From NCBI RefSeq assembly GCF_000154985.1, contig NZ_DS572682.1:1-64000 (forward strand): a stretch of 64,000 bases of DNA. Reading direction: 5' to 3'. The notes beneath the pieces were generated by a model. The model was given only the letters and a program-made list of their open reading frames with translations, did no database searches and had not been told where the DNA came from. Positions 3,691 through 47,944 of this stretch are shown piece by piece (position 1 is the stretch's first letter; each line of letters opens with the position of its first letter). The DNA comes from Streptococcus infantarius subsp. infantarius ATCC BAA-102 (GTDB lineage: Bacteria > Bacillota > Bacilli > Lactobacillales > Streptococcaceae). Both the position numbers and the translations under genes were made by a program.

Positions 3691-4665
3691 ATGGTATTTG
3701 CAAGAATTGCTCAGGCAGCAGCCTATGCCCCTGAACAAGTGATTACAAACGATGATTTGTCTGAAATCATGGACACCAGCGATGAATGGATTTCATCACG
3801 TACGGGAATTAGAAGACGACATATCACTCGAGATGAAACAACTAGTGATTTAGGGACGCAAGTTGCCAAGAAACTACTTTCAAAAGCTGGTTTATCAGCT
3901 GTGGATATTGATTTCATCATTGTTGCAACAATTACCCCTGATAGTCTGATGCCGGCAACAGCAGCTCGTATTCAAGGAAATATCGGTGCTGTAAATGCTT
4001 TTGCCATGGATGTGACAGCAGCATGTAGTGGCTTTGTGTTTGCTCTTTCGACTGCGGATAAATTTATTCAATCGGGTATCTATAAGCGCGGTATCGTCAT
4101 TGGTGCTGAAACATTGTCAAAAACACTGGACTGGTCTGACCGAAGCACTTCAGTTTTATTTGGTGATGGTGCTGGTGGTGTTTTGCTTGAAGCAACAGAA
4201 ACAAAACATTTCCTAGCAGAATCATTAAATACTGATGGAAGTCGTGGTCTTAGCTTGACATCAGCCAAAGTTGGCTTGTCTTCGCCATTTTCTGAAAAAG
4301 AAGAGGATGATAAGTTCTTGAAAATGGATGGTAGGGCTATCTTTGATTTTGCAATCAGAGATGTGGCTAAGAGTATCAAGACTCTTATTGATGCTTCTGA
4401 AGTTTCAGTTGAAGATCTTGACTATTTGCTTTTGCATCAGGCTAATATTCGCATTTTGGACAAAATGGCACGAAAAATGTCTATTGACCGAGATAAGTTT
4501 TTGGCAAATATGATGGAATATGGTAATACCAGTGCGGCGAGTATTCCAATTCTCTTATCAGAATCAGTGGATAAGGGACTTATAAAATTAGATGGTTCTC
4601 AGACAATTCTTCTATCAGGATTTGGTGGAGGTTTGACATGGGGAAGTCTAATTGTTAAAATCTAG
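3691..4665 (+). CDS. fabH: Beta-ketoacyl-ACP synthase III
   Basis: Condenses acetyl-CoA with malonyl-ACP to start each fatty-acid chain. The 324-aa thiolase-fold enzyme carries the full catalytic triad at canonical positions: Cys112 in AACSGF, His249 in LLHQAN and Asn279 in GNTSAAS. It begins two bases after the fabT stop, and its ribosome site GAGGAG lies inside the fabT end, so the two are translationally coupled. Confidence 0.97.
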
Positions 4666-10074: not shown

Positions 10075-11445
10075 ATGTTTAAAAAAATATTAATTGCCAA
10101 TCGTGGAGAAATTGCGGTGCGTATTATTCGTGCGGCACGTGAATTGGGAATCAATACGGTAGCTGTCTATTCTGAAGCTGATAAAAATTCTTTGCATACG
10201 ATTTTGGCTGATGAAGCAATTTGTATCGGTCCAGCTCGTTCGACAGACTCTTATCTTAATATGAATGCCGTCTTGTCAGCTGCTGTTGTAACAGGTGCTG
10301 AAGCGATTCACCCTGGATTTGGTTTTTTGAGTGAAAACTCAAAATTCGCAACCATGTGTGAAGAAATGCATATCAAGTTTATAGGACCAAGTGCTGAAAT
10401 CATGGACAAAATGGGTGATAAAATTAATGCCCGTGCTGAAATGATTGCAGCTAATGTCCCGGTTATTCCTGGATCAGACGGTGAAGTATTTACAGCTGAG
10501 CAAGCTTTAGAAGTTGCTGAGAAACTTGGCTACCCAGTGATGCTTAAAGCTTCAGCTGGTGGCGGCGGTAAAGGAATTCGTAAAGTTGAATCAGCCCAAG
10601 ACCTTGTACCAGCTTTTGAATCAGCTTCTCAAGAAGCTTTGGCAGCGTTTGGTAATGGTGCTATGTACATTGAAAAAGTGGTTTACCCGGCTCGCCATAT
10701 CGAAGTTCAAATCTTAGGGGATTCTTACGGTAATGTGGTTCACCTTGGTGAACGTGATTGTTCGCTTCAACGCAATAACCAAAAAGTACTTGAAGAAAGC
10801 CCATCAATTGCTATCGGTAAAACTCTTCGCGGTAAGATTGGTGATGCTGCTGTACGCGCAGCCAAAGCTGTTGGTTATGAAAATGCAGGTACGATTGAAT
10901 TCTTGCTTGATGAAAAGACATCACAATTCTATTTCATGGAAATGAATACACGTGTTCAAGTTGAGCACCCTGTAACAGAATTCGTCACTGGTGTTGATAT
11001 TGTCAAAGAACAAATTCGTATTGCAGCAGGACAAGAATTGTCTGTGACACAAGACGACATTAAAATCACAGGTCATGCTATCGAATGTCGTATCAATGCT
11101 GAAAATCCGAAATTTAACTTTGCACCAAGTCCTGGTAAAATTACAGATTTGTATTTGCCAAGTGGTGGTGTTGGATTGCGTGTAGACTCTGCTGTTTATA
11201 ATGGCTATACGATTCCACCATATTATGATAGTATGATTGCTAAAATCATTGTACATGGTGAAAATCGTTTTGATGCTTTGATGAAAATGCAACGTGCCCT
11301 TTATGAATTGGAAATTGAAGGTGTGACAACAAACGTCGAATTCCAAATGGATTTGATTTGTGATGAGCATGTGATTGCAGGGGATTATGATACTTCATTC
11401 TTGATGGAGACATTCTTACCAAACTACAATAAGGAAAATGATTAG
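10075..11445 (+). CDS. accC: Acetyl-CoA carboxylase, biotin carboxylase subunit
   Basis: ATP-dependent carboxylation of the biotin on AccB. The 456-aa ATP-grasp enzyme starts with [18 protein letters not shown], has the glycine-rich ATP loop [10 protein letters not shown] at about 161-170, and the active-site segment [13 protein letters not shown] at about 287-299. AGGAGG lies before the ATG. Confidence 0.97.
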
Positions 11446-11453
11446 GAGATTTC

Positions 11454-12320
11454 ATGGCTTTATTTAGTAAAAAAGATAAGTACATCCGAATTACTCCCAA
11501 TAGCTCTATTAAACAATCGGAACCTCGTGAAGTTCCTGAGGTTCCTGATGAATTGTTTGCCAAGTGTCCAGCTTGTAAGCACATGATTTATCAAAAAGAC
11601 TTAGGGGTTGCAAAGATTTGTCCAGCTTGTTCTTATAACTTCCGTATTTCTGCTAAAGAACGTTTGGCGATTACAGTAGATGAAGGAAGCTTTGAAGAAC
11701 TCTTTACTGGGCTTGAAATAAGTGACCCACTTAAGTTTCCTGGCTATCAGGAAAAATTAGCTAAAATGCGTGAAAAAACTGGTCTTGAAGAGGCTGTCAT
11801 GACTGGTAAAGCTTTGATTAAGGGAGAAAAAGTAGCACTTGCTATCATGGACTCTAACTTTATCATGGCTTCCATGGGAACAGTTGTCGGCGAAAAAATC
11901 ACGCGTTTATTTGAAATGGCGACTGCTGAAAAACTACCTGTTGTTATTTTTACAGCATCAGGAGGTGCTCGTATGCAAGAAGGTATTATGAGTTTGATGC
12001 AAATGGCGAAAATTTCAGCTGCTGTTAAACGTCACTCTGAAGCTGGTTTATTCTATTTGACAATCTTGACTGACCCTACAACAGGAGGGGTGACAGCAAG
12101 CTTTGCCATGGAAGGTGACATTATCCTAGCAGAACCGCAAGCTTTGGTTGGTTTTGCCGGTCGTCGTGTTATTGAGACAACAGTGCGCGAAAATTTACCT
12201 GAAGATTTCCAAAGAGCAGAGTTTCTTTTGGAACACGGTTTTGTGGATGCCATTGTTAAACGTACAGAAATGCCAGACACAATTGCTAAATTAGTTGCGT
12301 TTCATGGAGGTGCCAAATGA
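11454..12320 (+). CDS. accD: Acetyl-CoA carboxylase, carboxyltransferase beta subunit
   Basis: Forms the carboxyltransferase with AccA, moving the carboxyl from biotin to acetyl-CoA to make malonyl-CoA. The 288-aa protein has an N-terminal zinc ribbon with Cys38, Cys41, Cys56 and Cys59 (two CPAC knuckles) followed by the crotonase-like carboxyltransferase domain ([12 protein letters not shown]). Its TGA overlaps the accA ATG. Confidence 0.97.
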
Positions 12321-13090
12321 GTAGCGACGTATCAAGAATTTTGAAAGAAGCGCGTGATCAAGGGCGTTTGACAACCTTGGAATATGCTAATTTGATTTTT
12401 GATGACTTTATGGAACTTCATGGAGATCGTCATTTTGCTGATGATGGAGCAATCGTTGGGGGAATTGCTCGACTTGCCAGTCGTCCTGTGACGGTTATTG
12501 GTATTCAAAAAGGGAAAAATTTACAGGAGAATCTAAAACGCAATTTTGGTCAACCGAATCCAGAAGGTTACCGCAAGGCGCTTCGCTTGATGAAACAAGC
12601 CGAGAAATTTGGTCGTCCTGTCGTTACTTTTATCAATACTGCTGGAGCTTATCCAGGTGTTGGTGCTGAAGAACGCGGGCAAGGTGAAGCAATCGCGCGT
12701 AACCTGCTTGAAATGAGCAATCTTAAGGTGCCGATTATTGCTATTATCATTGGAGAAGGTGGCTCTGGTGGTGCTTTAGCGCTCGCTGTAGCTGATAAGG
12801 TTTGGATGCTTGAACACAGCATGTATGCGATTTTGAGCCCAGAAGGCTTTGCCTCAATCCTTTGGAAAGATGGTTCACGTGCAACCGAAGCAGCAGAACT
12901 GATGAAAATAACAGCTGGAGAACTTTATAATATGGGAGTTATCGATAAAGTGATTCCAGAACATGGTTATTTCTCAAGCGAAATCGTTGAGATGATTAAG
13001 ACAAATCTTATTTCTGAACTAGAGGAGCTTAGCCAACTTCCTTTGGAACAATTACTTGAAAATCGTTATCAACGCTTTAGAAAATTTTAA
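12317..13090 (+). CDS. accA: Acetyl-CoA carboxylase, carboxyltransferase alpha subunit
   Basis: Partner of AccD. The 257-aa protein has the crotonase-fold segments [14 protein letters not shown] and [11 protein letters not shown] that build the active site at the alpha-beta interface. It is the last gene of the fatty-acid cluster, sharing ATGA with accD, and is followed by a bidirectional terminator. Confidence 0.96.
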
Positions 13091-27069: not shown

Positions 27070-27867
27070 GTGACAATAGTATCAGATCAGGAATTGACAA
27101 TGACACCACTTCGAGGAAAAAGTGGGAAAGCCTTTATTGGTCAATATCCGAATGGTGAAAAAATCTTTATCAAGTTTAACACGACACCAATTTTACCAGC
27201 TCTTGCTAAAGAGCAGATTGCGCCACAATTGTTGTGGGTGCGTCGCACTGGTAATGGCGATACAATGAGTGCACAGGAATGGCTTGATGGAAGAATTTTG
27301 ACTAAAGAGGATATGGGTAGTAAACAGATTGTCCATATTCTTTTGCGTTTACACAAGTCACGACCATTGGTTAACCAATTGTTGCAGTTAAACTATAAGA
27401 TTGAAAATCCATATGATTTGTTGGTTGACTGGGAAAAAAATGCACCGTTGCAAATTCGTGAAAATACATATTTGCAAGGTATTGTAAAAGAACTAAAACG
27501 TAGCTTACCAGAATTTCGTTCTGAAGTTGCGACCATTGTACATGGAGATATCAAGCACAGTAACTGGGTCATTACAACAAGTGGTATGATTTATCTTGTT
27601 GACTGGGATTCTGTTCGTTTGACAGATCGAATGTACGACGTAGCCTTTCTTTTGAGTCACTACATTCCTTACACACGTTGGGGTGAGTGGTTGAATTATT
27701 ATGGCTATAAAGACAATGAAAAAGTTCGCAGTAAAGTTGCTTGGTACGGACAATTTTCATATCTATCACAGATTTTGAAATGTTTTGACAAACGTGATAT
27801 GGAACACGTCAATCAAGAAATATACGGCTTACGAAAATTTAGGGAGTTAGTTAGTAAAAAGAAATAA
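27070..27867 (+). CDS. ccrZ: Cell-cycle regulator CcrZ (phosphotransferase fold)
   Basis: A 265-aa protein of the aminoglycoside-phosphotransferase/choline-kinase fold with catalytic [11 protein letters not shown] (about 157-167) and the metal-binding [18 protein letters not shown]. In pneumococcus, CcrZ is recruited by FtsZ and links division with DnaA-dependent replication initiation. The close match, the length and the setting (ecsB before, trmB directly after) support the assignment. Start GTG 27070 with AGGAGGGCAGACAG upstream. It shares TAATG with trmB. Confidence 0.9.
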
Positions 27868-28505
27868 TGCGAGTTAGAAAACGTAAGGGTGCTGAGGAGC
27901 ACTTAGAAAATAACCCACACTATGTTATCTTAAATCCAGAAGAAGCAAAAGGACATTGGCGTGAAGTCTTTGGTAATGATAAACCAATCCACATCGAAGT
28001 TGGTTCAGGAAAAGGAGCATTCATTACAGGAATGGCTTTGCAAAATCCAGATATTAACTATATCGGAATTGACATTCAAGTATCTGTGCTTAGCTACGCT
28101 TTGGATAAAGTTTTAGATAGTCAAGCACCAAATGTTCGGTTGTTGCTAGTTGATGGTTCTGATTTGACAAATTATTTTGCGGATGGCGAAATTGATTTGA
28201 TGTATTTGAATTTCTCAGATCCATGGCCTAAGAAGCGTCACGAAAAACGTCGTTTGACTTATAAAACATTCTTAGATACTTACCGTCAAATCTTACCTGA
28301 AGACGGTGAAATCCACTTTAAAACTGATAACCGTGGCTTGTTCGAATACAGTTTGGCAAGTTTCTCACAATATGGCATGATTTTAAAACAAGTTTGGTTA
28401 GACTTACATGCTAGTGATTTTGAAGGAAATGTCATGACTGAATATGAAGAGAAATTTTCTAAAAAAGGTCAAGTCATTTATCGTGTGGAAGCACAGTTTC
28501 AGTAA
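27867..28505 (+). CDS. trmB: tRNA (guanine-N7)-methyltransferase
   Basis: Methylates G46 in the tRNA variable loop. The 212-aa Rossmann-fold enzyme has the SAM-binding [15 protein letters not shown] (about 41-55) and the TrmB signature [16 protein letters not shown] (about 117-132). The ATG overlaps the ccrZ stop. Confidence 0.96.
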
Positions 28506-28550: not shown

Positions 28551-28617
28551 GGAGAGGTACTTAGTGGAGAAGCGTAAATGAATTTTAGGTTTCGAGGGTT
28601 CAAGTCCCTTCCTCTCC
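28551..28617 (+). tRNA. Degenerate tRNA-like element (tRNA pseudogene?)
   Basis: The 67 bases fold into a cloverleaf. Acceptor stem GGAGAGG/CCTCTCC is perfect. D-arm CTT-AGTGGAG-AAG is short, with GG in the loop. Anticodon arm CGTAA-ATGAATT-TTAGG has one G-G mismatch and would present GAA. The variable part has four bases. T-arm GAGGG-TTCAAGT-CCCTT is complete. It is shorter than a normal tRNA, has U rather than purine after the anticodon, and no encoded CCA. The acceptor end resembles tRNA-Ser. It could be a decayed tRNA left at an integration site. Confidence 0.55.
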
Positions 28618-28645
28618 TTACACAATTGAATAGAAAAAGAGACGT

Positions 28646-28737: not shown

Positions 28738-28842
28738 ATGAAAAGGAAAACTTACTAGAGTTAATGGCGGTATGTTGTTAGAAAACGTTATTTAGGTGAT
28801 ATTAGCAAGTGATTTAGAGCTTGCTTAGAATAGTGAGGCTGT
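28738..28842 (+). pseudogene. Remnant of the first gene of the decayed c-di-GMP operon
   Basis: AAGGGGATAAGATT precedes ATG 28738, a good ribosome site and start, but the frame ends after six codons (MKRKTY). The next 100 bases hold stops in all frames; one frame reads like a C-terminus with two stops (GKLTRVNGGMLLENVI, then VILASDLELA). The original product cannot be identified. Most of the gene seems to be deleted. Confidence 0.4.
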
Positions 28843-29868
28843 ATGCTTTTAGGTAGAATCAAAGAATTATTATATAAGTATTAAGGCTGGTTGACCTATC
28901 TTGGGGCTTTGGTAGCATTTAATTTGATGTTGAAGCTGGCTTATGATGAGATTGTTATTAATCATAAGAATCCTGTGGAACTACTCATTTCAATTATTAT
29001 ATTAGGTGTGAGTTTATTGGCATCTTATCTCAATCGAAGACGTCACATGTTATCCTACTTTATCCTTAAGAGTTCTGAGTATATCAATATGTATGCTCTT
29101 GATTTGAATTATCGTTTTATGGCTATCAATCGAAATGATATTCGTCTCATGCAAGAAATCTTTAAATTCACTCCAAAGATTGGTGATTGTCCGCTACGGC
29201 ATTTAGATGCTGAAAGATCAGCAGAGCTAAAAGCTAATGACGATAGAGCACTGAAAGGTGAGAATTTTACGTCCTTAGATACTATCGAATATGATGGTAA
29301 GACACTTTATTGGCAAAATATGTTTTCGCCGATTTATAATCGTCGCAAGAAAATTATTGGAGCTTTTTCAATCGTTGTTGATGTGACGGAGCAACGAAAA
29401 CAAGAACTCGAAATGCAGAGATTGGCATATGAGGATGTCTTAACTCAAGTTCATAATCGTCGCTACATTGAGCTTGCTTTTGACGAATGTGTTCTTAACA
29501 AGACTGAAGAAATTACGGTTATCATGTCTGATTTGAATAAATTTAAAGAGGCTAATGACATTTATGGTCATACTCGTGGGGACCAGATTTTAATTGAATA
29601 TGGTGAGTTATTAACTAAGGTTATGCCAGAAGATGCTGTGGTGGCACGGCTAGGTGGCGATGAATTTGCTGTTTTACTTCCGGGGGTTACGAAACAACAG
29701 GCAGATTTTTTGATCAATCTTGTTAAGATTGAGATGATGGTAAAAGATATGCCGGTAACGGCTTCGCTCGATTCTTATACAGATTCTTATCAGGCCCATA
29801 AGACATTTGTTGATTTTTGTGCTTGTGCTAATGAGAGAATGTATCGTGATAAAAATCAGAAGGGATAA
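28843..29868 (+). pseudogene. PAS-GGDEF diguanylate cyclase with a premature stop
   Basis: ATG 28843 has GTGAGG five bases upstream and reads MLLGRIKELLYKY, then TAA at 28882, then continues in the same frame for 328 codons to 29868. The open part has two membrane helices (about 1-50 from TTG 28891), a PAS-like domain (about 66-165) and a GGDEF domain with LTQVHNRR, the metal-binding Asp in SDLNKFKEAND, and an intact LGGDEF at about 254-259. The inhibitory RxxD site is replaced by MPED. It would make c-di-GMP if translated, for instance by restart at TTG 28891 or ATG 28927. The stop is consistent with one CAA-to-TAA change. Confidence 0.8.
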
Positions 29869-29873
29869 AGCTT

Positions 29874-30880
29874 ATGATCTATCAAGATGTTGTTATTGTT
29901 ATTCCTGCCTTTGAACCTGATCAACGCATGCTAGAATTGTTAAGAGATATTCGCTTACGAGAAGATAAACCTAAGGAAACGACTCTTCATGGACCTTATA
30001 TCTATATGCTATCCCTTATGCGGTTCTTTGGCTGATAGCTATGTATGGTTTGGTAACCTTTAACTATGGTAAATTTGGTTCGGAACTTTTCTATGGTAGT
30101 ATCATTAGTTTCTGACTCTTTTATCACATTGTTAATTTGACATTTGCTATTTTCTGTGCGATTGGTCGTCCTCATTATAGAGGCAGTGAACGTTTCCCTG
30201 TTGATGAACCGATGACTATCGAGGTTGATAATGATTCTTACCAAGTGAGGGTCTGTGATATTTCAGAAACAGGTATTTCCTTTAGTTCTAACTTGCCACT
30301 TTATTTGCCAAAAACGAAGGAAATAACGCTTCACTTGCAATCACGCGATTATCGTGCGAGATCTAAAGGACATGTGGTTCGTGTTGTGGTTGGTGAAAAA
30401 TGCTGGCGCTACGGTGTGCAATTTACGGAAGTTAATCCAGCTGATATCCGTGAATTTTATCAATACATTTACGACCGTATCAATCACAATTTACCAACAC
30501 ATAAGGATTCTTGGATGACAACTTGGGATGATTTGCTTAAAAACTTTAACCGACGTTTCCAAAGTAATGAACGTCCAGTTTCAGCATACGACCAAATTGC
30601 CTTACCAAAAGTGCGTCTAAATGAGGATGTTGAATACAACGGCACAAGACGTCAACTTAGAAAGACGAATTATTATTATATGACTTTTTCTGGGCAACTA
30701 GAAAACCCACGAAGAAAGCCAATTGTCGACTTTATCTATCATGACATGTTCTTTAAGCTTGCCTTTGTCTCTTACGATATTGATAGAGATTAGTCACTGT
30801 ACCAAGTGGTGAATCTTCCAACTCTGGAAAAATTACCTGCTTTTAAAGCTTTAGCAAATGAATGGAGGGAAAAAGTATGA
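29874..30880 (+). pseudogene. Glycosyltransferase / BcsA-like synthase-PilZ fusion scar
   Basis: ATG 29874 opens a family-2 glycosyltransferase N-terminus (VVIVIPAFEPDQRMLELLRD), which runs out by about 29960. In another frame, from about 29980, membrane helices of a BcsA-like synthase follow (LYAIPYAVLWLIAMYGLVTF), interrupted by TGA near 30116. Then comes an open stretch to 30790 carrying a PilZ domain with both c-di-GMP motifs, RGSER and DISETG. TAG at 30791 removes the last 28 residues; the natural stop at 30878 overlaps the next ATG. The whole catalytic region is deleted, so no synthase can be made, though the PilZ part (TTG 30137) could still be expressed. Confidence 0.75.
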
Positions 30881-31469
30881 TAACGATTTTGGGATTACTT
30901 TTATTCTTTGCTATCACCATGGGGTATGACGCCTTTTTCCGCAATGGGTTGAAGATGAATCGCCGTTTGACTTGGGTCTTTACTTTTTCATTTATTACCT
31001 TGGTCTTGCATCTTAGTAGTTTAGTTGGTGAGATGCTTGAGACGGTTTATGTCTTATCTGCTATAGGCTGTCTATTAAGTCTTTACTATTTGTGGTCGGT
31101 TTGGAAGAAAAAGGTTAAGATTCGTAGGTTGGATTACATCTCTATTGGCATGATTTTTTACCTGCTTTTATTTGGGATGTTAACGTTGATGCCAGGGAAA
31201 ACTTTGTCCAAGCAGATAAGGAATTTCTTGAATTGATGAAGTCTTACAGTAACAACGCAACAAGTTATTACCTTTGGAATGAAAATATTGAAGCAAGGGA
31301 TGATTTCACCTTTACGGATAAAGATTTTATTGCCATGCTAAAAACTTATGATGAAGTTGTTATTTTGGATGACCACTACACCTTCAATGCTTTGACGAAG
31401 AAACTTTTTGGATGTACCTATGCTCCAGGAGTTTACAAGATATCTGATATTCTTGCGGGAAAAGGATGA
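30877..31469 (+). pseudogene. Membrane protein of the decayed operon, frameshifted
   Basis: ATG 30877 overlaps the preceding stop (ATGA), showing operon structure. The first 119 codons encode about four membrane helices (MITILGLLLFFAITMGYDAF...) and end at 31236. A second frame, open before ATG 31233 and running to 31469, encodes a soluble-looking C-terminus (DDFTFTDKDFIAMLKTYDEV). The coding potential switches frame near 31190-31235, so a single protein of about 195 aa broken by a frameshift is most likely. Two separate small genes are the alternative. Family not recognised. Confidence 0.5.
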
Positions 31470-31727: not shown

Positions 31728-32207
31728 ATCGCAAACGCAAATACAATCATTGATGTCGTTACAGAAGTGGTTGCACCAGCTATTAAAGAGCCGTTTGAAT
31801 TGGTTGATGTTGAGTATGGAAAAATGGGCAGCGACTATGTCCTTAGTATCTTGATTGACAAACCAGGAGGGATCACCGTAAATGATACAGCTGATTTGAC
31901 TGAAATCATTAGTCCTCTACTTGATGCCATCAAACCAGACCCATTCCCAGAACAATACATGTTGGAAGTGTCTAGCCCTGGTTTGGAGCGTCCATTGAAG
32001 ACTAAAGAAGCTCTTGAAAAAGCTTTAGGTTCTTATGTCAATGTTAGTCTTTACAAAGCTATTGATAAAGTTAAGGTATTCCAAGGAGACCTTGTAGCTT
32101 TTGATGGTGAAACATTGACTATTGATTATTTGGACAAAACACGCAAGAAAACCGTTGAAATTCCATATTCAACAGTTGCAAAAGCGCGTTTAGCAGTGAA
32201 ATTGTAG
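31728..32207 (+). CDS. rimP: Ribosome maturation factor RimP, apparent ATC start
   Basis: Assists 30S subunit assembly. The core matches RimP ([48 protein letters not shown], ending RLAVKL). In frame upstream of residue 14 there is no ATG, GTG or TTG before the TGA at 31704. AAGGAGG (31713-31719) is eight bases before ATC 31728, which gives 159 aa with a normal N-terminus ([19 protein letters not shown]). GTG 31767 would cut off conserved residues. Non-AUG initiation, as in infC, is the best reading. Confidence 0.85.
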
Positions 32208-39186: not shown

Positions 39187-39223
39187 CGGTTGATTTGTGA
39201 GATTTCTGATAGGAAGGTATCTT

Positions 39224-41462
39224 ATGAAAAAAGAAGAAGTCTTTGTCATTGATGGCATGACATGCGCGGCCTGTGCATTAAATGTCGAAAATGCTGTCAA
39301 TAAAATAGATCATGTCGATTCAGCGGTTGTTAATCTGACAACAGAGAAGATGACTGTACGCTACAATCCTGACTTAGTCAGTGAAGCTGAGATTGAAAAA
39401 GCTGTTGTGGATGCTGGGTATGGCGCTTGTGTCTTTGACCCAACAACAGCTAAAAGCCAATCAGAACGCCAGAGCGAAGCCACTCATAATATGTGGCATA
39501 AGTTTTTGTGGTCAGCGGCTTTTTCGATTCCCTTGCTTTATCTATCGATGGGTAGCATGATGGGATTGTGGGTGCCGAAGGCTATTGGCATGAGTGAGCA
39601 TCCTTTGATTTTTGCGCTGGTTCAGCTTGCATTGACTTTACCAGTCATGTACTTTGGACGCCGTTTTTATGTTAATGGTTTTCGTGCTTTGTTAAAAGCG
39701 CATCCTAATATGGATTCTTTAGTCGCTCTGGCAACGAGCGCAGCATTTCTTTATAGTCTTTATAGCACTTACCACATTGCCTTAGGCCATGTGCATCACG
39801 CGCATATGCTTTATTTTGAGTCTCTTGCTGTGATTTTGACCTTGATTACCTTGGGAAAATATTTTGAAACCTTGTCGAAAGGTCGAACATCCGATGCCAT
39901 CCAAAAATTATTAACTTTATCTGCTAAAGAGGCGACTCTTATCCGTGATGGAGCTGAGCAGACAATCTCAATTGATCAGGTTCAAGTAGGTGACCTTATC
40001 TTGGTCAAGCCAGGTAGAAAAAATTCCTGTTGATGGTTATGTGGTGTCAGGACATTCGGCTATCGATGAATCAATGTTGACGGGTGAAAGTATTCCAGTA
40101 GAGAAAGTGGCAGATGATAAGGTATTTGGTGCTTCTATTAATGGACAAGGTTCGCTAACTATTCGAGCTGAAAAAGTCGGTGACGAAACGCTTTTAGCAC
40201 AGATTGTTAAATTGGTAGAAGATGCTCAACAAACTAAAGCGCCTATCGCCAAGATTGCTGATAGGGTTGCTGGGGTTTTTGTGCCAGCAGTTATGACTAT
40301 TGCTTTGGTCACTTTCTTATTCTGGTATTTTGCCAAGGGCGAAAGTTTCGTCTTTGCACTCCAAGTCGCTATCGCCATTTTGGTGATTGCTTGTCCTTGT
40401 GCGCTTGGTCTTGCCACACCAACAGCCATCATGGTCGGAACTGGACGCGGTGCTGAAAATGGGATTCTTTACAAACGTGGTGATGTCCTTGAAAATACTC
40501 ATCATATTGATACCATGGTCTTTGATAAGACAGGAACCATCACGCAAGGAAAACCACAAGTTGTTGATATTATTGCCTATCACGGTGACGAAAGTAAGCT
40601 ACTTGGTCAGGTTGCATCTATTGAAAAATATTCAGAACACCCACTTAGTCAGGCGATTGTGGAAAAAGCTAGCGCTGAAAAACTTGTTTTAGCAGAAGTT
40701 GAAAATTTCACTTCTCTAACAGGACGAGGTTTACAAGCTGACCTTGCTGGGCAGACCATTTACGTTGGTAACCGCAGGTTGATGGAAGAGTTACAAGTTG
40801 ACTTGACCGCAAGTGAAACAGCGGTGCTGGCTGCGACCCAAAAAGGTCAAACTCCGATTTATATCTCGGCTAATGAGCAACTGCTAGGAGTAATTACTGT
40901 AGCGGATTTGTTAAAAGCAGACAGTAAAGAGACCGTCGCCAAATTGCAAAGTCAAGGTATTGATGTTGTTTTATTAACGGGAGACAACAGCAATACCGCG
41001 CAAGCTATTGCCAAACAAGCTGGAATCAAGACTGTGATTAGCGAAGTCTTGCCTGACCAAAAATCACAAGCTATTAAGGACTTGCAGAGCCAAGGAAAAA
41101 TGGTCGCTATGGTCGGTGACGGGATTAATGATGCGCCAGCGTTAGCAGTAGCGGATATTGGGATTGCGGTAGGTTCAGGAACTGACATTGCTATTGAGTC
41201 AGCGGATATTATTCTGATGAAACCAGAAATTTCTGATGTTCTAAGAGCCTTAAGCATCAGTCGTTTGACGATTAAAGTGGTTAAGGAAAATCTCTTCTGG
41301 GCATTCATCTACAATATTCTAGCGATTCCAGTTGCGATGGGAGTTTTGTATCTCTTTGGTGGACCTTTGCTTAATCCAATGATTGCAGGACTTGCTATGG
41401 GCTTTAGTTCAGTGTCAGTGGTTCTAAATGCCCTTCGCTTAAAATACATGACATTAAAATAA
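39224..41462 (+). pseudogene. copA: Copper-exporting P1B-type ATPase CopA with a one-base frameshift
   Basis: Cu(I) exporter. The first frame (ATG 39224) has the heavy-metal domain DGMTCAACALNVENAV and four membrane helices and reaches LILVKPG, where it shifts and stops at 40033. The second frame continues [23 protein letters not shown], with the ion site [13 protein letters not shown], the phosphorylation site FDKTGT and GDGINDAP, ending at 41462. One extra A in or beside the six-A run at 40016-40023 accounts for the break; corrected length is about 745 aa. Either a real inactivating frameshift or a homopolymer sequencing error. ORF boundaries otherwise look fully conserved, which favours a recent change or an error. 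Confidence 0.9.
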
Positions 41463-46479: not shown

Positions 46480-47944
46480 GTGTCAGTAAATTGGTAAGAA
46501 ATTGCTTTTGGTTTTTTTGGAGGTCTAGGACTCTTTCTCTTCAGTATTAAATATATGGGAGACGGTCTACAACAGGCTGCAGGAGACAGACTTCGTTTTT
46601 ATATCGACAAATATACGAGTAATCCTTTCTTAGGAATTCTTGTTGGTTTAGCCATGTCAGCTCTAATCCAATCAAGTTCAGGGGTAACAGTTATCACTGT
46701 TGGTCTTGTGTCAGCAGGACTTTTAACCTTGCTACAAGCGATTGGTATTGTCATGGGAGCCAATATCGGGACGACTGTGACGTCCTTTCTGATTGGTTTT
46801 AATTTGGGTGACTATGCACTCCCAATGATTTTTATTGGTGCCGCTTTGTTATTCTTCACGTCAAACTGACGTTTGAATAATATCGGGCGTATCATGTTTG
46901 GTGTTGGAGGAATTTTCTTCTCACTTAATATCATGGGGTGACGCCATGGGACTATTAAAAACTGTTCCAGCCTTTCAGGATTATTTAGCAACCTTAGGTG
47001 ACAAACCGATTATGGGTGTTTTGATTGGGACTGGATTGACCATGCTTATCCAATCATCAGCTGCCATTATTGGTATTTTACAAGGGTTATATGCAGGTCA
47101 TTTGCCTGACCTTCAAGGCTCAACTCCTATTCTTTTAGGAAGTAATATCGATACTTGTATCACAGCCGTGATAGCAGCGATTGGTTCAAATATCGCAGCC
47201 AAACGTGTGGCTGGTGCTCAAGTTCTCTTCAACGTTGTCGTAACAGTGCTCTTTATGATTCTTTTGGTGCCATTTACTAGCTTGATGCAATGGATGGAAG
47301 TTCATTTTAAATTGACACCAGCCATGACGGTTGCCTTTGCCACACAAGCCTTTGAAGCAGCATTCTTGTTTGTTGAAACATGTAATGAAAAATATGCTGA
47401 TAAGACATAAAAATTTGAAGATACTATCAATAATGTCGATGAAGAATTGACTAAATATTTGATTGACCTTTCAAGTGAACAATTGAATCAACACGAAAGT
47501 GAAATTTTATCAAGTATCTTAGATTCATCACGTGATTTGGAACGTATCGGTGACCACAGTATCAGCTTGGTGCATTTGATGGAGCATAATATTTCAAAAG
47601 ATATTACTTTCTCTCCAGTTGCTGTTCAAGAAATCGATCAACTTTACCATGAAACACATCGTATGATTTTGGATTCATTGAAAGTTGTTATTGATAACGA
47701 TCTGCCTTTAGCAAATGAGTTGGTAGATCGTCACAAAGATATCGCTCATTTGGAACGTCGCATCCGTAAGAATTACATCAAACGCATGAACAACGGTGAA
47801 TGTACACCACTTGCAGGGGTTAACTTCATCGATTTGATTACACCATGTACACGTATCACAGATCACGCACTTAACTTGGTTGAAAAGTACTTGAAAATCA
47901 AATTTAATCATACATTTAATACCTTTGAACCTTTTTGTTTTTGA
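46480..47944 (+). pseudogene. Na/Pi cotransporter (NptA/PhoU fusion type), multiply disrupted
   Basis: Originally a sodium-phosphate symporter with a C-terminal PhoU-like domain. Lesions from GTG 46480: TAA at codon 6 (MSVNW, then EIAFGFFGGLGLFLFS); TGA near 46867 after LLFFTSN; one extra G in GGGG at about 46937, breaking NIMGDAMGLLKTVPAF; an internal deletion joining MTVAFA to TQAFEAAFLFVET, which removes the last membrane helix and linker; and TAA at 47408 before KFEDTINNVDEELT. The duplicated QSSSG/QSSAA motifs and the PhoU part (RDLERIGDHS) remain readable. Certainly non-functional. Confidence 0.88.

Follow-up and report, generated by a model that had tools for sequence, protein, structure and literature searches.

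The 64,000-nucleotide stretch of Streptococcus infantarius subsp. infantarius ATCC BAA-102 analysed here (contig NZ_DS572682.1, positions 1 to 64,000; hereafter the window) carries the remains of an operon between trmB and rimP. With a probability of about 0.85, positions 28843-31469 are a decayed copy of the streptococcal 'hemicellulose' operon. This reading stands on the order of the genes, on relatives that carry the operon whole at this site, and on the lesions themselves; for the intact form, we infer a mechanism of control by cyclic dimeric guanosine monophosphate (c-di-GMP) and of polymer branching. Four remnants follow one another in operon order, with the gene content of the streptococcal hemicellulose locus: a diguanylate cyclase (gene 1), a family 2 glycosyltransferase (GT2; gene 2), a synthase resembling the cellulose synthase BcsA (gene 3) and a membrane protein (gene 4). 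The cyclase is the only gene that is near whole. The features of the operon are as follows.

28843-29868, + strand: gene 1, PAS-GGDEF diguanylate cyclase; stop at codon 14 (28882-28884), the rest collinear with an intact 341-residue protein; open from TTG 28891
29425-29859, + strand: GGDEF domain with the GGDEF signature retained (Pfam and codon comparison)
29874-29953, + strand: gene 2 remnant, approximately the first 26 codons of a 355-residue GT2/GtrA-type glycosyltransferase (alignment to relatives)
29954-29972, + strand: deletion junction, ~2.3 kb lost relative to S. equinus Sb05, where the collinear alignment breaks
29973-30880, + strand: gene 3 remnant, codons ~444-745 of the BcsA-like synthase (C-terminal membrane part and PilZ); stops at 30113-30115 and 30791-30793
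30179-30472, + strand: PilZ domain, DxSxxG retained, RxxxR retained just before the domain (Pfam and sequence)
30862-31179, + strand: gene 4 remnant, codons 1-106, 94.3% identity
31171-31179, + strand: deletion junction within gene 4, ~1.3 kb lost, at a short near-repeat, with the pieces in different frames
31167-31469, + strand: gene 4 remnant, codons 553-652, 96.0% identity

Evidence for the four remnants

The initial annotation had described remnants of a PAS-GGDEF cyclase, a GT2 start, BcsA-like helices joined to PilZ and membrane proteins, and all of these are recovered by Pfam matches and by S. equinus Sb05 proteins used as queries. The frame 28891-29868 matches GGDEF at 98.3 bits (E 5e-28) and PAS_4 at 31.4 bits, and the frame 30116-30793 matches PilZ at 56.2 bits (E 4.8e-15). 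Since these scores exceed the Pfam cut-offs, the remnants are not chance resemblances, which the E-values of the GGDEF and PilZ matches also rule out; both domains fall in their proper Pfam families, not in unrelated ones. The window pieces of genes 2 and 4 have no Pfam match over the cut-off and are recognised through intact relatives. The Sb05 cyclase is found over residues 1-341 at 94.7% identity, the synthase over residues 437-745 at 92.0% and gene 4 over residues 1-106 and 553-652; the GT2 protein is found over residues 1-38 (E 8e-15), the final residues spanning the deletion junction.

The window cyclase retains a GGDEF domain with its active-site signature, as a diguanylate cyclase should, and the synthase remnant retains both PilZ motifs, RxxxR and DxSxxG. 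The operon starts at 28843 rather than at 28738, as first proposed, the ATG at 28738 meeting a stop within a few codons. Gene overlaps of the ATGA type had been taken as signs of a former operon: the overlap of the synthase with gene 4 is seen in the window, while that of the GT2 gene with the synthase is seen in the intact relatives and not in the window.

Lesions and relaxed constraint

The frames of the window copy are interrupted by five lesions in 2.6 kb between intact genes, three of them stop codons and two of them deletions. Through the larger deletion, of ~2.3 kb, the sequence passes from about codon 26 of gene 2 straight into synthase codon ~444, so that almost the whole of gene 2 is missing along with the catalytic half of the synthase; at this junction, the Sb05 position in the DNA alignment jumps from 10089 to 12382. 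The second, of ~1.3 kb, extends from codon 106 to codon 553 of gene 4. PilZ and GGDEF are the surviving domains; the synthase has lost its GT2 catalytic motifs and its gating loop, which sit in the deleted part. With these parts of gene 2 and the synthase deleted, and gene 4 lacking its middle, the locus can make no polymer.

Codon changes polarised with S. vicugnae as outgroup give 17 synonymous changes, 11 non-synonymous changes and 3 stops over the operon on the window branch, and 75, 17 and 0 on the Sb05 branch, counts that recombination could distort. The branches differ (Fisher p 0.007; 0.039 without the stops), a shift indicative of relaxed constraint on the window branch; taken by itself, the cyclase shows no significant difference (p 0.099). 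The several lesions and the non-synonymous excess support the view, already expressed in the initial annotation, that the operon is decaying in place.

The trmB-rimP interval in relatives

The whole interval was compared in 12 other genomes, a non-random set of genomes that either carry the locus or match the window well. In five of them, all four genes are open, with gene 4 at 617-652 residues: S. equinus Sb05 (G041), S. vicugnae (G279), S. equinus ATCC 9812 (G040), G045 and G081. The expectation that intact versions exist in relatives is thereby borne out, and the converse possibility, that relatives share the stops, is ruled out, since none of the window's stops is present in Sb05 or S. vicugnae. 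In a further six (G083, G001, G042, G046, G052 and G232), the locus is broken, reduced or absent, the GT2 matches considered being those of E 1e-8 or better, so that weak traces of gene 2 in other genomes may have escaped notice; in the remaining genome, G004, the interval ends at a contig end.

The surviving pieces differ between lineages. G083 retains synthase residues 1-349 and G001 retains gene 4 from residue 335, both lost from the window, and the window retains the PilZ part lost from G001 and G083; because of this difference, the loss in the window is independent of the losses in G001 and G083. Among the 30 best-matching trmB loci from 59 evenly sampled genomes of the genus, operon parts lie downstream of trmB in three (G001, G040 and G232). 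In the other 27, none of the four proteins is found in the downstream stretch of up to 1.5 kb, where rimP is present in 20.

Several copies have features of their own. The gene 4 remnant of G001 carries a partial tandem duplication in its tail (L088, ~3750-4405). G081 and ATCC 9812 hold mosaic copies (L032/L037): in G081, the flanks are ~94-97% identical to the window, the operon pieces 71-74% identical to the window and the operon 91-98% identical to that of G045; in ATCC 9812, a divergent cyclase (65% to Sb05) precedes a GT2 gene at 84%. The operons of S. vestibularis, S. rubneri and G182 (L033, L034 and L036) share 95-99% DNA identity with that of G045 (L035) and do not lie beside trmB in the stretches compared; the trmB genes of G177 and G182 are just 76% identical to the window trmB. 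Because the operon DNA is 95-99% identical while trmB is 76% identical to the window's, the operon appears to have spread recently by horizontal transfer among S. vestibularis, S. rubneri, G182 and G045. G152 and G153 (L040 and L042) carry a divergent pair of synthase and gene 4 with GGDEF and small EAL-type genes nearby, the G152 synthase seemingly being interrupted by two opposite-strand frames. A contig labelled uncultured Lachnospiraceae (isolate RUG11835, L092) contains a streptococcus-like operon with a synthase 89% identical to that of Sb05, and is probably misbinned.

Synthase partners and the predicted function of gene 4

Synthase relatives across Firmicutes were analysed as the best 80 of 185 matches, 79 of which have a synthase frame of at least 600 residues. 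In these 79 loci, a gene 4 homologue lies directly downstream of the synthase in 75, a gene 2-like frame directly upstream in 60, and a cyclase-like frame within 5 kb in 24. Among streptococcal relatives, the GT2 catalytic motifs and gating loop are present in 10/10 and DxSxxG in 9/10. The gene 2 product, a GT2 domain fused to a GtrA/DPMS membrane domain, resembles undecaprenyl-phosphate sugar transferases. The conserved cassette would fit a synthase-made backbone to which a lipid-linked sugar is added outside the cell.

Gene 4 of the intact relatives has no Pfam, NCBIfam or PDB sequence match. Its predicted fold is polytopic and of the GT-C type, and lipid-linked sugar transferases make up the top ten Foldseek hits and almost all of the 50 VIA-align rows; the protein is accordingly predicted to be a GT-C-fold glycosyltransferase resembling ArnT. 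H115, D117, H121 and K127 are invariant in 54/54 homologues. The place of gene 4 directly after the synthase is that of BcsB or CcsB elsewhere (for CcsB, an excerpt of PMC7710045), and the fold match to GT-C enzymes scores moderately, two points that would suit a passive BcsB-like export partner. Such a role is nevertheless unlikely in view of the polytopic fold, the dominance of sugar transferases among the structural matches, the four invariant residues and the frequent lipid-sugar synthase-type gene directly upstream of the synthase.

A putative c-di-GMP circuit

Across 284 Streptococcus genomes, GGDEF proteins over the cut-off occur in 14 (16 at E <= 0.001), PilZ proteins in 11 and EAL proteins over the cut-off in three (five at E <= 0.001). 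The five intact trmB-rimP carriers have one GGDEF and one PilZ match each, with no EAL match and no HD_5 match. RxxD upstream of the GGDEF motif is an inhibition site, and none is seen in the 10/10 cyclases inspected by eye. A search for the c-di-GMP-I riboswitch gave 0/17 matches, the control genomes being silent too. G052 carries a full-length PAS-GGDEF cyclase between trmB and rimP (L031, 9356-10450) with no synthase match there, and elsewhere a GGDEF-EAL protein and another EAL protein.

For the intact operon, we infer control of the polymer by c-di-GMP. The gene 1 product, a membrane PAS-GGDEF cyclase, would make c-di-GMP, which would bind the PilZ domain of gene 3 and free the gating loop of the BcsA-like GT2 synthase; the synthase would then build and extrude a β-glucan-like backbone. 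Gene 2 would load a sugar onto undecaprenyl phosphate, and gene 4 would add this sugar to the emerging chain outside the cell. Because gene 4 is predicted to be a GT-C transferase, the product could be a branched hemicellulose-like glucan. One published result calls for caution: RiGT2, the mixed-linkage β-glucan synthase of Romboutsia ilealis, carries RxxxR and D/NxSxxG and neither bound nor responded to c-di-GMP in vitro, according to an excerpt of PMC10374906.

The odds are about even that the intact operon constitutes a previously unassigned Gram-positive machine switched by c-di-GMP. This machine would combine a BcsA-PilZ backbone synthase with a dedicated undecaprenyl-phosphate sugar synthase and, in place of BcsB, an ArnT-like GT-C enzyme for decoration outside the cell, and would include a streptococcal circuit of one cyclase and one PilZ receptor without a dedicated phosphodiesterase, lost independently across lineages, the window's among them.

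The cyclase of the window might also have outlived the polymer as a working orphan, translated from TTG 28891 and supplying c-di-GMP to another target. The 325-residue frame 28891-29868, which retains PAS and GGDEF, and the synthase-free cyclase locus of G052 speak for such a role. It is rather improbable, however, given the stop at codon 14, the lack of a clear ribosome site ahead of TTG 28891 (by eye), the fact that none of the five intact carriers has another PilZ or GGDEF protein, and the absence of any GGDEF match in G001, the nearest genome compared.

Flanking genes and neighbouring features

27867-28505, + strand: trmB, intact left flank (Pfam Methyltransf_4, 156.7 bits)
28551-28618, + strand: tRNA-Ser(GGA) remnant, called tRNA-Phe by ARAGORN; an 85-87 nt tRNA-Ser(GGA) stands at the site in other species, and aligned equinus-like copies are shortened
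31767-32207, + strand: rimP, intact right flank

The call of a real tRNA-Phe gene is rejected on the identity of this site in other species. The tRNA-Ser(GGA) beside trmB, of which the window has only a remnant, is intact in G045, G083, G052, G232, G046 and others; at the trmB site of S. equinus Sb05, ATCC 9812, S. vicugnae, G081, G001, G042 and G004, ARAGORN detects no tRNA. Elsewhere in the window, a heavy-metal P-type ATPase is apparently split into two overlapping frames (39197-41462), and a Na/Pi-cotransporter with a PhoU domain into three (46555-47944).

Relation to the published locus

A putative four-gene hemicellulose locus, gallo_0364-0367, is reported in S. gallolyticus UCN34, with a similar locus in S. 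infantarius, S. lutetiensis, S. equinus, S. salivarius and S. ruminicola; stop codons occur within the locus in a few strains of S. gallolyticus, and one strain of S. macedonicus has two broken genes and lacks the fourth (excerpts of PMC12445087). The cluster is listed as pseudogenes in S. macedonicus (PMC4051162, Table 5, seen in excerpt), and the same source gives, for S. infantarius CJ18, a listed cyclase, a split synthase and the other two genes as not found, a pattern close to that of the window. With a matching gene pattern tabulated for CJ18, five separate lesions within 2.6 kb flanked by intact genes, and shifted codon-change ratios, it is highly improbable that faulty sequencing or assembly produced the stops and deletions.

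The window locus is equated with gallo_0364-0367 by gene content and through G083. Pel is rejected as the system, the available part of PMC7112168 describing another S. gallolyticus cluster.

The locus and its decay in relatives are thus already published, and the window copy is one more case of the known gene loss in the S. bovis/equinus complex. Since a known locus is decaying in a group known to be losing it, the copy itself is ordinary, and the main gain concerns the intact locus. The new elements are the GT-C prediction for gene 4, the likeness of gene 2 to undecaprenyl-phosphate sugar transferases and the putative one-cyclase, one-receptor circuit; of the open-licence papers listed in searches for the decorated-glucan idea, none concerns this operon, judged by title or abstract start. 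Streptococci are usually described through cyclic dimeric adenosine monophosphate (c-di-AMP), and the intact locus would give some of them a one-cyclase, one-receptor c-di-GMP circuit. For gene 4, whose conserved product matches nothing in Pfam or NCBIfam, the GT-C prediction supplies a function that can be tested.

Comparison with known systems

The closest system is gallo_0364-0367, which, like the window locus, comprises a diguanylate cyclase, two glycosyltransferases and one hypothetical membrane protein; the available portions of the publications neither map lesions nor assign the membrane protein a function. BcsA cellulose synthase (PDB 4hg6 and 7lby) shares with the intact synthase the GT2 domain, the membrane channel, the gating-loop motif and the C-terminal PilZ domain. 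However, the synthase of the intact relative reaches 350.1 bits against a cut-off of 699.1 for the curated NCBIfam cellulose synthase model (CelA, TIGR03030), and the streptococcal locus has a GT-C-like gene at the place of BcsB.

Among Gram-positive systems, RiGT2 is likewise a GT2-PilZ synthase without a clustered bcsB; it differs in being reported as independent of c-di-GMP in vitro, and the excerpt of PMC10374906 mentions no gene 2 or gene 4 partners. The clostridial ccsZABHI operon also pairs a BcsA-like synthase with a membrane partner gene, but CcsB has two predicted helices around a CBM11-like domain and the operon includes O-acetylation genes (PMC7710045, in the part available), whereas gene 4 is polytopic and GT-C-like. 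In the gts operon of Lactobacillus acidophilus, another lactic acid bacterium, a BcsA-like synthase is linked to c-di-GMP as well; the receptor proposed there is a degenerate EAL protein instead of PilZ (PMC6123363, in excerpt).
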